64,000 nt of DNA from Methanothermococcus okinawensis IH1. GTDB lineage: Archaea; AGJL01; Methanococci; Methanococcales; Methanococcaceae. The notes under the pieces were generated by a model that had not been told where the DNA came from, did no database searches, and worked only from the letters and a program-made list of their open reading frames with translations. A program made the position numbers and the translations under genes. The stretch is from the NCBI RefSeq assembly GCF_000179575.2, contig NC_015636.1:1279495-1343494 (forward strand). The letters are read 5' to 3'. Shown piece after piece: positions 6,926 through 11,073 of this stretch (position 1 is its first letter; each line of letters begins with the position of its first letter).

Positions 6926-8416
6926 TTATTGTTCAGCTTTGGGTTTTTCTCCACCACTACTTTCTTCGATGCCCATGGCTTCAAGTATTTTGGTTTGGAT
7001 TGCCTCTTCAACTAATTTTTTAAGGGAATCTTTATCTGAAACTGATTCAAAAATTCCTAAATCTATGCTGGCCGCAGCAGAATTTTGGTGTCCTCCCCCT
7101 CCAAAAGCCCTTTTCATTATGTCCCCTACATCAATCCTTAAATCCTTTGTTCTTGCACTTATATGTATTTTATTTTCAGAGATTCCAAAAACATAAGTCG
7201 TTGTAATTCCCTCCATTTTAAGTAGGAAATCAGCAGCTTTTGGTAGAGCATCCCTGTTTTTTATCATTCCAACATAGGATAAAGCTATACTACTTCTGAT
7301 TATCTTTCTGTTAATAATTGCCTTAGCCAATACATCCATAGTTTCAGTATCCATTTCAGGATTTTCTATCATTTCCAGTGTTTTTGGGTCCATCAAATCC
7401 TGCAAATATCCCGCAGCTTCAAAATCTTTTTTAGAGGTCTTTCTTTTAAAATAGTTTGTATCTGTGCATATGGCATAATAAAGGGCAGTGGCTAAATCCT
7501 GTTTTGGTGTCATGTTTAACTGTATTATATACTCTGTCAAAATAGTTGCCGCAGCTCCTATATCTGGTCTAATGTCCATATAGTTAGCAGTTAAATCCCC
7601 ATTATCATGATGGTCAATAATAATATCAATTTTATAATGGTTCGTATCTATCGGCAATACCTTTGAGGATGAAGCATCCACTACTGCAATACCTGCGTAA
7701 TTCTCCAAATTAATATCCTCTATATGGGTTAATTTCACACCCAATAAATTAATCATAGCCTTATTTTCATCAAAACCTATTTTTCCACCATAGGTTATAT
7801 CAGAATCTACGCCCCACTTTTCCATTATTCTTTTTAAAGCCATTGCACTAGCTATTGAATCAGGGTCTGGATTATTATGCATAACTATTAAAAAAGGAAC
7901 TTTATTATCCCCATTACCATTTTCGCTGTTTTCAGCTGTTTTTGGATTTTCGGAAATATTATTGTGATGCCTTATTTTAACATTCATAACTACTTCTTCT
8001 AAATCCATTAATTTTCTTCTTAGCTTAGATTTTTCAATTTCATGTATGACTTCCTTAGCCGCACATTCTATTGGATAAATTATTTTATTTACTTTAATGC
8101 CCGAATATAACTCAGGATATTTTACAATTCCTCTAACTATCAAATATCCTTTTGGATTTAGTTCAGACACCAATTCTGCTATTTTTTTATTTATTTCATA
8201 TTCATTAGTTAGTACCAATATAGTATCTGCATCTTTAATAAATGCCCTTTCGAGCGTTTCTTTTTCAGATGCATCTCCTATAACATAGGTAAAATCAACT
8301 TTTTCAAGAGAGTCAAATACCGAAGCATTTTTATCAATTACAACGACTTTATCCATGGTTTTGGCATAATTTACAACCTTACGACCAAAAGAGCCATAAC
8401 CTATAATTAATATCAT
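6926..8416 (-). CDS. TrkA-N (RCK) domain fused to DHH/DHHA1 phosphoesterase
   Basis: A 496-residue two-part protein. Residues 1-120 form a Rossmann RCK/TrkA-N domain (IIGYGSFGRKVV, then VVVIDKN and GDASEKETLERA), a nucleotide-binding regulatory fold. Residues about 165-490 form a DHH phosphoesterase: HNNPDPDSIASA, VVDAS, IIDHHDN, and a DHHA1 domain ending in GGGGHQNSAAAS. DHH proteins of this type cleave nanoRNA, pAp or cyclic dinucleotides using Mn2+. The RCK fusion is typical of methanogens and could make hydrolysis respond to a nucleotide ligand. A GGAGG site 6 bases before the ATG supports the start. Confidence 0.9.
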   Translation of the reverse strand: MILIIGYGSFGRKVVNYAKTMDKVVVIDKNASVFDSLEKVDFTYVIGDASEKETLERAFIKDADTILVLTNEYEINKKIAELVSELNPKGYLIVRGIVKYPELYSGIKVNKIIYPIECAAKEVIHEIEKSKLRRKLMDLEEVVMNVKIRHHNNISENPKTAENSENGNGDNKVPFLIVMHNNPDPDSIASAMALKRIMEKWGVDSDITYGGKIGFDENKAMINLLGVKLTHIEDINLENYAGIAVVDASSSKVLPIDTNHYKIDIIIDHHDNGDLTANYMDIRPDIGAAATILTEYIIQLNMTPKQDLATALYYAICTDTNYFKRKTSKKDFEAAGYLQDLMDPKTLEMIENPEMDTETMDVLAKAIINRKIIRSSIALSYVGMIKNRDALPKAADFLLKMEGITTTYVFGISENKIHISARTKDLRIDVGDIMKRAFGGGGHQNSAAASIDLGIFESVSDKDSLKKLVEEAIQTKILEAMGIEESSGGEKPKAEQ

Positions 8417-8491: not shown

Positions 8492-8706
8492 TTTTTATTT
8501 ATTATTTATTTGCAGATATTGTTTATATTATTTACGATTTTTTAACTTATTCCGCAAGAAGTCCCCTTCCGTAAGGGAGGGGATGAATCCTCAAAATCCC
8601 TTCGGGATTTGTACGGTTTCCTTCGCTTCGCTCGGAAATGCGGGCAAAACATTTATATGGTAGTATTATCATATATAACCATGTAATTATAGAGGTATCT
8701 ACACTA

Positions 8707-8746
8707 TTATCATCTGAGAAGGCTGAGAGTGCTACTCAGATGATAA
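8707..8746 (+). repeat. 12-bp perfect hairpin within the IS605 relic
   Basis: TTATCATCTGAG (8707-8718) and its exact reverse complement CTCAGATGATAA (8735-8746) flank a 16-base loop. The arm is long enough to form a stable RNA or single-stranded DNA hairpin. It may be part of the left-end structure recognised by a Y1 transposase or part of the element's RNA. Confidence 0.6.
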
Positions 8747-8780
8747 ATTATTTTATAATCATTCTTTGTTTTAGTCCTCT

Positions 8781-8930
8781 AAAACGGTATTAAGTCAGGG
8801 CTGGGAGAGTCCGTTGTGCCTGCGGAGGGGAAACCTCTACTCAGAGTTATATCTTATATAAGGGTAATCTCTGGGCAAGTATCCCCTATGAGTCAGGAAG
8901 CCCCTCCCGTAAGGGAGGAGTACTTCACTT
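8781..8930 (+). ncRNA. omegaRNA-like structured 3' end of a TnpB element
   Basis: In IS605 elements the 3' end of tnpB and the right end also encode the guide scaffold (omegaRNA/reRNA) used by TnpB. Here the segment can fold into several stems: ACGG/CCGT (8784-8787 with 8811-8814), GAGG/CCTC around 8825-8838, CAGAG/CTCTG enclosing TTATAT-CTT-ATATAA, and the terminal hairpin 8897-8926 ending TTCACTT. The sequence after 8930 would be the guide. Structure was judged by eye; expression and partner protein are unknown. Confidence 0.45.
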
Positions 8931-8979
8931 GAATATAATTTTAGTTTATTTAAAAAATTATTATAAAAAATTAGTATAA
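8794..8979 (+). pseudogene. Fragment of TnpB C-terminus
   Basis: Read from 8794, the frame gives VRAGRVRCACGGETSTQS and, further on, ESGSPSRKGGVLHLN before a stop at 8977. The CACGGE.TS segment followed by an E(A/S)GSPS tail is the usual ending of archaeal IS605 OrfB/TnpB proteins, where the tail overlaps the right-end hairpin. The frame is closed by a stop directly upstream (8791) and the catalytic RuvC and zinc-finger parts are gone, so it encodes no functional nuclease. It confirms the origin of the surrounding structured DNA. Confidence 0.6.
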
Positions 8980-8996
8980 TATGTTATATATTTAAA

Positions 8997-10793
8997 TTAA
9001 ATACCCCAAAACATGTTGTTTTCCAATTTTCTTTTTAATTCAACATATCTCTCCAAAGCCTCTTTTTCATCACCCCTTAATTCATCCATATATTCGTGAA
9101 GAAGTTTCCTAACTTCATTTTCAGGAACCTCCACATATAATATATCGTTTTCCTTTGCATGTTTTCCAAGCATAATATTGCCTTCAATAGAAATAGGCAC
9201 CTGCATACCAACTTTTGCTTCTTTTATATTTTCTTGCTGTTTATTTTTTATTTCTTTGACATAACCTAATCTTTTTCCATCTTCACTCATTATTTGACTT
9301 CCTACCCTTAAAGTTCCATATACAATTTCTACCCCACATATTGCAGGTTTGCTTTTTCTAAATATACAATTTGGAAGTATCCTCAAAATTGCAGGTTTTG
9401 TAAGTTTGTTAAATTCGTCTGATTTCATGAGCTCCTCCATTTCTTTGGACCACACCTCATAATCCTCAACTAACTTATATATAATATTTCCTTCAAACAC
9501 TTTTACATCTGATTTTTCCATTTCTGTCTTTGCATCGGGTAGTATTTTTGTATTAAAGGCTATTACAACACCATTAAGTGGATTGGATTGACCATAAGAA
9601 GAAGCCTCTATAATGTCTTTTTTAGAAACATCCCCTACCTCTGCCTTTTTAATTTGGACATTTTTCTTTCTTAATTCATTTGCAAGAGCTTCCAATGAGC
9701 CCATAGTGTCTGCCTTAATAATTATGCCTTCGTCATCTGTTGGTATAGCAGTTTCTTCTATTTCCTCCATAATTTCTTTTTTAGCTTCTTCTATTTTGTT
9801 TTTTGGAACTATTCTTAATGGACTACCTGCTATAACAGTATCTAAATCTGGTGCAGATATTTTAAGCCCTGATGCCGCAGCTACTTCTTTTACTGGTTTA
9901 AATTTATCTCGTGGGTCTCTCATTTCATCCAAAGGTTTTGGTTTTAAAAGTGCCTTAATTCTTGAAACTACCACGCCTGTTGGATTACCTACCACAAGAT
10001 AATGTCCCTGTTTAGCAACTCCATCATATATTATAGCATCAATAGTTTTTCCTAATCCTCTCTCTTCTTTAACTTCAAGGACTGTGCCCTTTGCAGGACC
10101 CTCAACATCTAATTTTAGGTTCTGTTCTAAAAATTTCTGTGCCAATCCTGCAAGCATAACAAGCAAATCGGGAATGCCTTCCCCAGTTACGGCAGATACT
10201 GGCACTATACTTACAGTTTTTGTGATGTCCTTTACTCTTGTAAAAAGGTCTGCCTCAAAACCGAGCTCATTTAATGGTTTTATTACATTTTCATATAGTT
10301 TGATTTCAAATTCTGTTAATGCATTAGGATGCTGTTTTTTTTCATTGAAATTTAAAACAAAAGGTCCTTCAACAGAGTTCCACCCGGGAATTAAATCCAA
10401 TTTATTTGCTGCAACTATAAAAGGTGTTCTATTCTGTTTTAATATATTAACCGCTTCAACAGTTTGAGGTTTAAAACCTTCATTTATATCAACTACCAAT
10501 ATAGCAATATCTGCCAGAGCTCCTCCTCTTTTTCTCAATGATGTGAATGCCTCATGACCGGGTGTATCAATTACCAAAATCCCCGGAATTGTTAAATCAG
10601 CCTTTAACATCCCAAGCAAATCTTTTGATATTCTTTTTATAGTATCTGTTGGAATCTCACTTGCACCAATATGCTGAGTAATTCCCCCTGCTTCTCTCTT
10701 TGTAACTCTTGTTTTTCTTATTCTATCAAGCAAACTCGTTTTTCCATGGTCAACATGGCCGAGAACACTTACTATTGGACATCTTAAAGCCAT
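8997..10793 (-). CDS. infB: Translation initiation factor IF-2 (aIF5B)
   Basis: This GTPase promotes initiator tRNA delivery and subunit joining. The 598-residue protein shows G1 GHVDHGKTS (about 12-20), switch II DTPGHEAF, G4 NKLDLI, a second beta-barrel, the IF2 domain III and the C-terminal barrel ending in ENNMFWGI. It lacks the long N-terminal extension of bacterial and eukaryotic factors, as is usual in archaea. The start at 10793 (MALRCP) is preceded by GGTGA at a 6-base spacing; an ATG four codons upstream overlaps that site. The Methanocaldococcus jannaschii orthologue carries an intein, and this one has none. Confidence 0.95.
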   Translation of the reverse strand: MALRCPIVSVLGHVDHGKTSLLDRIRKTRVTKREAGGITQHIGASEIPTDTIKRISKDLLGMLKADLTIPGILVIDTPGHEAFTSLRKRGGALADIAILVVDINEGFKPQTVEAVNILKQNRTPFIVAANKLDLIPGWNSVEGPFVLNFNEKKQHPNALTEFEIKLYENVIKPLNELGFEADLFTRVKDITKTVSIVPVSAVTGEGIPDLLVMLAGLAQKFLEQNLKLDVEGPAKGTVLEVKEERGLGKTIDAIIYDGVAKQGHYLVVGNPTGVVVSRIKALLKPKPLDEMRDPRDKFKPVKEVAAASGLKISAPDLDTVIAGSPLRIVPKNKIEEAKKEIMEEIEETAIPTDDEGIIIKADTMGSLEALANELRKKNVQIKKAEVGDVSKKDIIEASSYGQSNPLNGVVIAFNTKILPDAKTEMEKSDVKVFEGNIIYKLVEDYEVWSKEMEELMKSDEFNKLTKPAILRILPNCIFRKSKPAICGVEIVYGTLRVGSQIMSEDGKRLGYVKEIKNKQQENIKEAKVGMQVPISIEGNIMLGKHAKENDILYVEVPENEVRKLLHEYMDELRGDEKEALERYVELKRKLENNMFWGI

Positions 10794-11073
10794 ACCTATC
10801 ACCATATTATACTAAATTAAAATAAACACATAATTTTGATATTATTTAAAAAAGGAAATATTGATATATAAACATGTTAAACATATGATAACTTTTTTTA
10901 TGATAACTTTTATAAAAAAGATTTAGATTATGGATAAAGATTATAGATAATAATATACATCCTACTATATATAAGGGTAGCTAATATAATAGTAGCTAAA
11001 TAGTGGTTTGGGTTATATTTATAATTATATATAACTATAAATAAAATAAATATAAAATAATTTTCAACTATAG

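Follow-up and report, generated by a model that had tools for sequence, protein, structure and literature searches.

A 382-bp tnpB-less IS200/IS605-type element of Methanothermococcus okinawensis with a promoter and a putative omegaRNA scaffold

TnpB is believed to promote the persistence of the transposon that encodes it. In ISDra2, TnpB is bound to a ~150-nt reRNA derived from the 3′ end of tnpB and the right end of the element; the guide consists of ~16 nt of flanking DNA, and the TAM is the same sequence as the insertion target (PMC8612924). Archaeal omegaRNAs of IS200/IS605 elements include the sotRNAs of Halobacterium, represented in Rfam by RF02656 and RF02657 (PMC12558985). Palindrome-associated transposable elements (PATEs) have been described in Haloquadratum walsbyi (PMC3119063). 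Elements that lack tnpB and carry omegaRNAs may already have been reported for bacteria; for Methanococcales, no report of such elements was found in the literature searched, a scope outside which many subscription journals lie.

The window analysed here is a 64,000-nucleotide stretch of the complete genome of Methanothermococcus okinawensis IH1 (1,662,525 bp, with a further contig of ~14.9 kb). In the first-pass annotation, positions 8781-8930 were described as the orphan, omegaRNA-like end of a TnpB element. The tnpB 3′ remnant, right-end hairpin and additional stems behind that description are present on the + strand, the remnant starting at ~8775 and the end lying at 8928 (TTCAC), but the end is not an orphan: it has a left-end counterpart (8547-8661), and 8547-8928 is a whole short element of 382 bp. 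Its identification as a non-autonomous IS200/IS605-type element of the PATE kind is well supported. Both ends are kept, TTTTAAC (8540-8546, + strand) flanks the left end from outside the element as the target site and, by its position, the predicted TAM, and the target is not duplicated. As is typical of IS200/IS605 elements, subterminal hairpins are found at both ends (8563-8582 and 8901-8920, + strand; 8565-8582 and 8901-8918 form an inverted repeat) and inverted terminal repeats are absent. The PATE assignment reflects the absence of a transposase gene, the homology of the palindromes to IS605-type ends and the presence of several copies. Its neighbours, both minus-strand genes, are one encoding a 496-aa protein (6926-8416), whose start faces the element, and an aIF5B/IF-2-like gene (8997-10805), whose 3′ end does.

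About 30 elements were delimited in four genomes (G000 is the source genome; G023, G029 and G033 are compared genomes; L numbers are loci). In nearly all of them the left end follows TTTAAC or TTTAAT, with variable sequence further out, and the right end, where found, is TTCAC, with unrelated sequence beyond. Insertion 3′ to a short target of fixed sequence, which is not duplicated, is likewise a mark of IS200/IS605 membership. The orthologous site of G029, which has 87% identity in the neighbouring gene, has no element; the alignment is AT-rich and gappy at the join, and so shows the absence rather than the exact join. The earlier suggestion of a mobilisable palindrome-associated element holds, given two copies in the source genome, relatives in two others (G023 and G029), ends that are well defined and a target that is consistent. 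The elements fall into size classes of 42-44 bp (one fused hairpin), 190-570 bp (no tnpB), ~1.5 kb (tnpB) and 1.8 kb (L094, with a frameshifted tnpA plus tnpB). These ends and sizes follow the PATE pattern known from Haloquadratum (PMC3119063).

The smallest elements (L104 at C2:~1552408 of G000, L110 and L112 in G033, L102 in G023) consist of the start of the left end, one hairpin and TTCAC, and resemble fusions of the left and right hairpins from which the whole core was deleted. As a single fused hairpin is all that is left in them, formation of an end as such does not require the scaffold. At L113-L116 (G030 and G031), L098, L105 and L117, ~50 nt of the left end (window ~8590-8640) occur in genomes without the remaining element. 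No relatives were found in viral contigs and plasmids; the sole viral match, L194, is to a GC-rich phage gene and was set aside as a chance match.

The second short copy of the source genome (C2:1024626-1025027) is also exactly 382 bp, with 96% identity over its full length (E ~1e-186 in a DNA search). Two ~1.47-kb tnpB elements of the source genome, L011 and L012, share both ends with the 382-bp element, together with the TTTTAAC flank and the TTCAC terminus: the left end, which comprises the subterminal hairpin and the tnpB-leader region (8547-8661, + strand), is 96% identical to theirs over 90 nt, and the right part (8775-8928) matches their tnpB 3′ end and right end with 90% identity (E ~1e-48). 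The homology of the 382-bp element to the tnpB elements and to the short copy is far beyond chance. The tnpB gene of L011 is uninterrupted and encodes a 404-aa TnpB with OrfB_IS605, Cas12f1-like TNB and HTH domains, for which ISDra2 TnpB is the closest natural protein in the PDB (E 4e-48); the second tnpB gene, in L012 (C2:260941-262407), is frameshifted around codon 148. An intact tnpB element with the same right end, the absence of which from archaea would have spoken against the first-pass annotation, is present in the same genome. The accompanying proposal that RNA of the 382-bp element is used by a TnpB encoded elsewhere is plausible from the sequences, its main precondition being provided by a TnpB with intact domains and a homologous right end, encoded 0.73 Mb away.

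No Y1 TnpA was found in the source genome, so that excision may have ceased, and with it any benefit of re-insertion. The tnpA gene is found frameshifted in L094 of G023 and as a contig-edge fragment in G029. L094 (G023 C1:317500-321700) is a full tnpA+tnpB element with the same ends as the 382-bp element; because its tnpA is frameshifted, G023 may also be without an active transposase.

The promoter-like TTTATATGG, originally placed at 8651, is a genuine archaeal TATA box at 8652-8660 (+ strand), with 10 of 12 positions invariant in seven short elements. It is also present in tnpB elements and belongs to the tnpB promoter region common to full-length copies. From the usual spacing of archaeal TATA boxes, transcription is predicted to start at ~8680 (+ strand). 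At the other end, the tnpB 3′ remnant, omegaRNA-like scaffold and right end (8775-8928, + strand; scaffold refined to 8797-8900) are homologous to L011, L012 and L093-L097, and such homology to the corresponding part of an element whose tnpB is intact (L011) is one mark of a TnpB omegaRNA. By position, as in the ISDra2 reRNA (PMC8612924), the TAM would be TTTTAAC and the guide would be TTGAATATAATTTTAG, the first ~16 nt of flanking DNA (8929-8944, + strand). No exact second site for TAM plus guide was found in the source genome; two mismatches allow 12 sites in this AT-rich sequence, one of which is the element's own right junction, versus four for the reversed control.

The scaffold is kept in tnpB-less copies from three genomes even though its variable arm has been deleted (L074) or replaced (L075, L077), and GGGCTGGGAGAGTCCG, GCCTG and CTATGAGTCAGGAAGC are almost unchanged in the short elements with an altered arm. 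The scaffold of the 382-bp element differs from that of a G023 copy at 3 of 96 positions and from that of the resident intact tnpB element at 10 of 96, which makes its compatibility with the resident TnpB putative. The idea that short-element scaffolds track the resident tnpB was rejected, as it fits G029 and fails in the source genome. Hairpin loops take palindromic inserts while the stems persist; the inserts are strings of small palindromes with TTCG-like loops that enlarge the hairpins without breaking the stems, and they are seen in the left-end hairpins of L011, L012, L075, L077, L100 and L106 and in the scaffold loops of L073 and L076.

The middle part of the element (8662-8774, ~115 nt) does not come from sense tnpB, and recurs only in short elements of G023 and G029. 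It contains a hairpin private to short elements (8707-8746, + strand), the core of which (8713-8741) is nearly invariant: 97% identity and 27 of 29 positions unchanged among seven copies from three genomes, versus ~80% identity and 13/23 and 14/28 invariant positions (~53%) in the flanking spacers of the same seven copies. Among eight sequences, including a decayed one, 93% of the pair cells are standard, with one-sided changes kept via G-U; pairs are thus preserved but no double compensatory changes occur in these eight, so the hairpin structure is supported only moderately. A 51-codon frame spans the internal region, as if it were a small protein gene or a remnant of tnpA. This frame is broken by indels and stops in other copies, a Pfam search gave nothing above the cut-off, and the hairpin core is invariant at third codon positions too, so that a coding origin is largely refuted and may be considered extremely improbable. 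The predicted transcript (8680-8928) is more stable than shuffled sequences (z -3.0); the stability of 8781-8930 alone as RNA is unremarkable (z -1.3). A helix joining the 21-mer at 8683-8703 to the right end appears in the predicted fold, and was rejected as it is lost in other copies.

A second tnpB-less family comprises 13 loci in four genomes (the source genome, G023, G029 and G033) of two genera, G033 being from another genus. A TATA box and then a hairpin precede its scaffold, AGGGCTGGGACAGTCCGAAGTGACGCCTGTGGAG...CAGGAAGC. Five elements could be delimited end to end; they are 190-330 bp, too small for tnpB, and their order of parts (left end, TATA box, hairpin, scaffold, right end) is the same as in the 382-bp element, with homologous scaffolds. 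A covariance model of the second family independently finds the scaffold of type A, the family of the 382-bp element: in each of the 12 type A loci tested, its match falls precisely at the right end (E 0.0008-0.29). The compact omegaRNA-like scaffold at L106/L165 (G000 C2:804003-804115) and 12 further loci is nearly identical across the two genera, which may be due to recent spread rather than selection.

That two tnpB-less families have the same order of parts points to some reason for the retention of the scaffold. Alternatively, the 382-bp element may be a plain PATE or MITE relic, its scaffold a leftover without RNA function and its terminal hairpins alone important, as the DNA that TnpA acted on; the tnpB remnant may simply be too young to have decayed. 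Core-deletion PATEs derived from IS605-type elements are known (PMC3119063), TnpA is absent from the source genome, and fused-hairpin copies of 42-44 bp exist. A plain relic would not be expected, however, to have an internal hairpin core far better conserved than its spacers among divergent copies, to keep the scaffold core while the arm is swapped, or to have its RNA-like order matched in a second tnpB-less family, and this explanation is a real possibility rather than a probable one.

Another possible function is suggested by the 21-mer at 8683-8703 (+ strand), which is antisense by sequence match to the tnpB codons for C-R-Y-(L/I)-Y-N-Y. It is complementary at 21 of 21 positions to the tnpB+tnpA element of G023, near the start of tnpB, and at 20 of 21 to the resident tnpB genes. 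Sites with up to three mismatches in the source genome are confined to the two short elements and two tnpB genes, and the reversed pattern has none. The longest match in 20,000 shuffles was 17, which indicates that the match is not due to chance. The 21-mer was rejected as a DNA target of TnpB, as no TTTAAC adjoins it in tnpB. In other insertion sequences, antisense RNAs lower the output of transposon proteins, and the RNA of the 382-bp element might be mainly such a regulator, with the 21-mer near its predicted 5′ end pairing with early tnpB mRNA to lower TnpB output. The extent and genomic specificity of the complementarity and a predicted duplex energy of -25 to -32 kcal/mol agree with this, as does the inhibition of TnpB-omegaRNA cleavage by a segment of tnpB mRNA, possibly via pairing (PMC10278001). 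On the other hand, the 21-mer (12 of 21 positions invariant) is no better conserved than the spacers and so may be only a relic, both short copies of the source genome carry one mismatch to the resident tnpB, and a scrap copied in inverted orientation when the short element was formed would look identical and would explain the 21-mer as well as an antisense function does. Regulation as the main role of the RNA is unlikely.

The best reading, and a fairly probable one, is that the 382-bp element is a transposon parasite, producing an omegaRNA of its own and using the resident TnpB in trans. The element would have been derived from a TnpB element through loss of the tnpB core, and mobilised by a Y1 TnpA acting in trans, the gene for which would since have disappeared from the source genome. 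Its own TATA box probably drives synthesis of a ~250-nt RNA consisting of the 5′ hairpin, the omegaRNA scaffold and ~16 nt of flanking guide; binding and trimming of this RNA could fall to the intact TnpB of the sister element. Chromosomes that have lost the short element by excision could then be cut by TnpB at TTTTAAC plus guide, in the donor site left empty, and repair templated by a chromosome copy that still carries the element would restore it and prevent its loss. Methanococci are polyploid, which would favour repair from an intact copy. Judging from sequence, the chances that the RNA is a functional trans-acting omegaRNA are about even. As a tentative and somewhat unlikely generalization, methanococcal PATEs might be self-guiding parasites, with two families independently keeping a promoter-driven omegaRNA so that elements without any protein-coding gene are protected by TnpB in trans; the tnpB-antisense leader of one family could tune or hijack TnpB production. 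If gene-less elements do carry their own guide RNA and exploit the TnpB of a neighbour, the selfish unit is the guide RNA itself, and this would be a natural route to the uncoupling of guide RNAs from the nuclease gene that is seen in CRISPR. The system is small and directly testable, and it occurs in methanogens that can be cultivated.

A guide RNA located away from the nuclease gene, as proposed for the 382-bp element, has a parallel in the omegaRNAs of IscB, which can be trans-encoded; the IscB system differs from a TnpB-type element in its nuclease family and its scaffold. The omegaRNA/reRNA of ISDra2 (PMC8612924) resembles the putative one of the 382-bp element in its position at the tnpB 3′ end and right end, its guide taken from the flank and its TAM equal to the target, the last two being predictions here; in contrast to ISDra2, the 382-bp element lacks tnpB in cis, has its own upstream hairpin and promoter-proximal leader, and follows TTTTAAC rather than TTGAT. 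Like the Halobacterium sotRNAs (PMC12558985), the scaffold is an omegaRNA-like part of an archaeal IS200/IS605 element, but those sotRNAs (RF02656, RF02657) overlap tnpB genes, and Rfam covariance models gave no credible match to the 382-bp element at gathering or even relaxed thresholds, so it is not assigned to the archaeal sotRNAs. The Haloquadratum walsbyi PATEs (PMC3119063) share with the 382-bp element the lack of an orf, the IS605-type subterminal palindromes, the targeting oligonucleotide and the absence of terminal inverted repeats, and with the methanococcal family as a whole the core deletions that leave fused ends; what sets the present element apart from them is its promoter, its omegaRNA-like scaffold, its private conserved hairpin and its host group, the Methanococcales.
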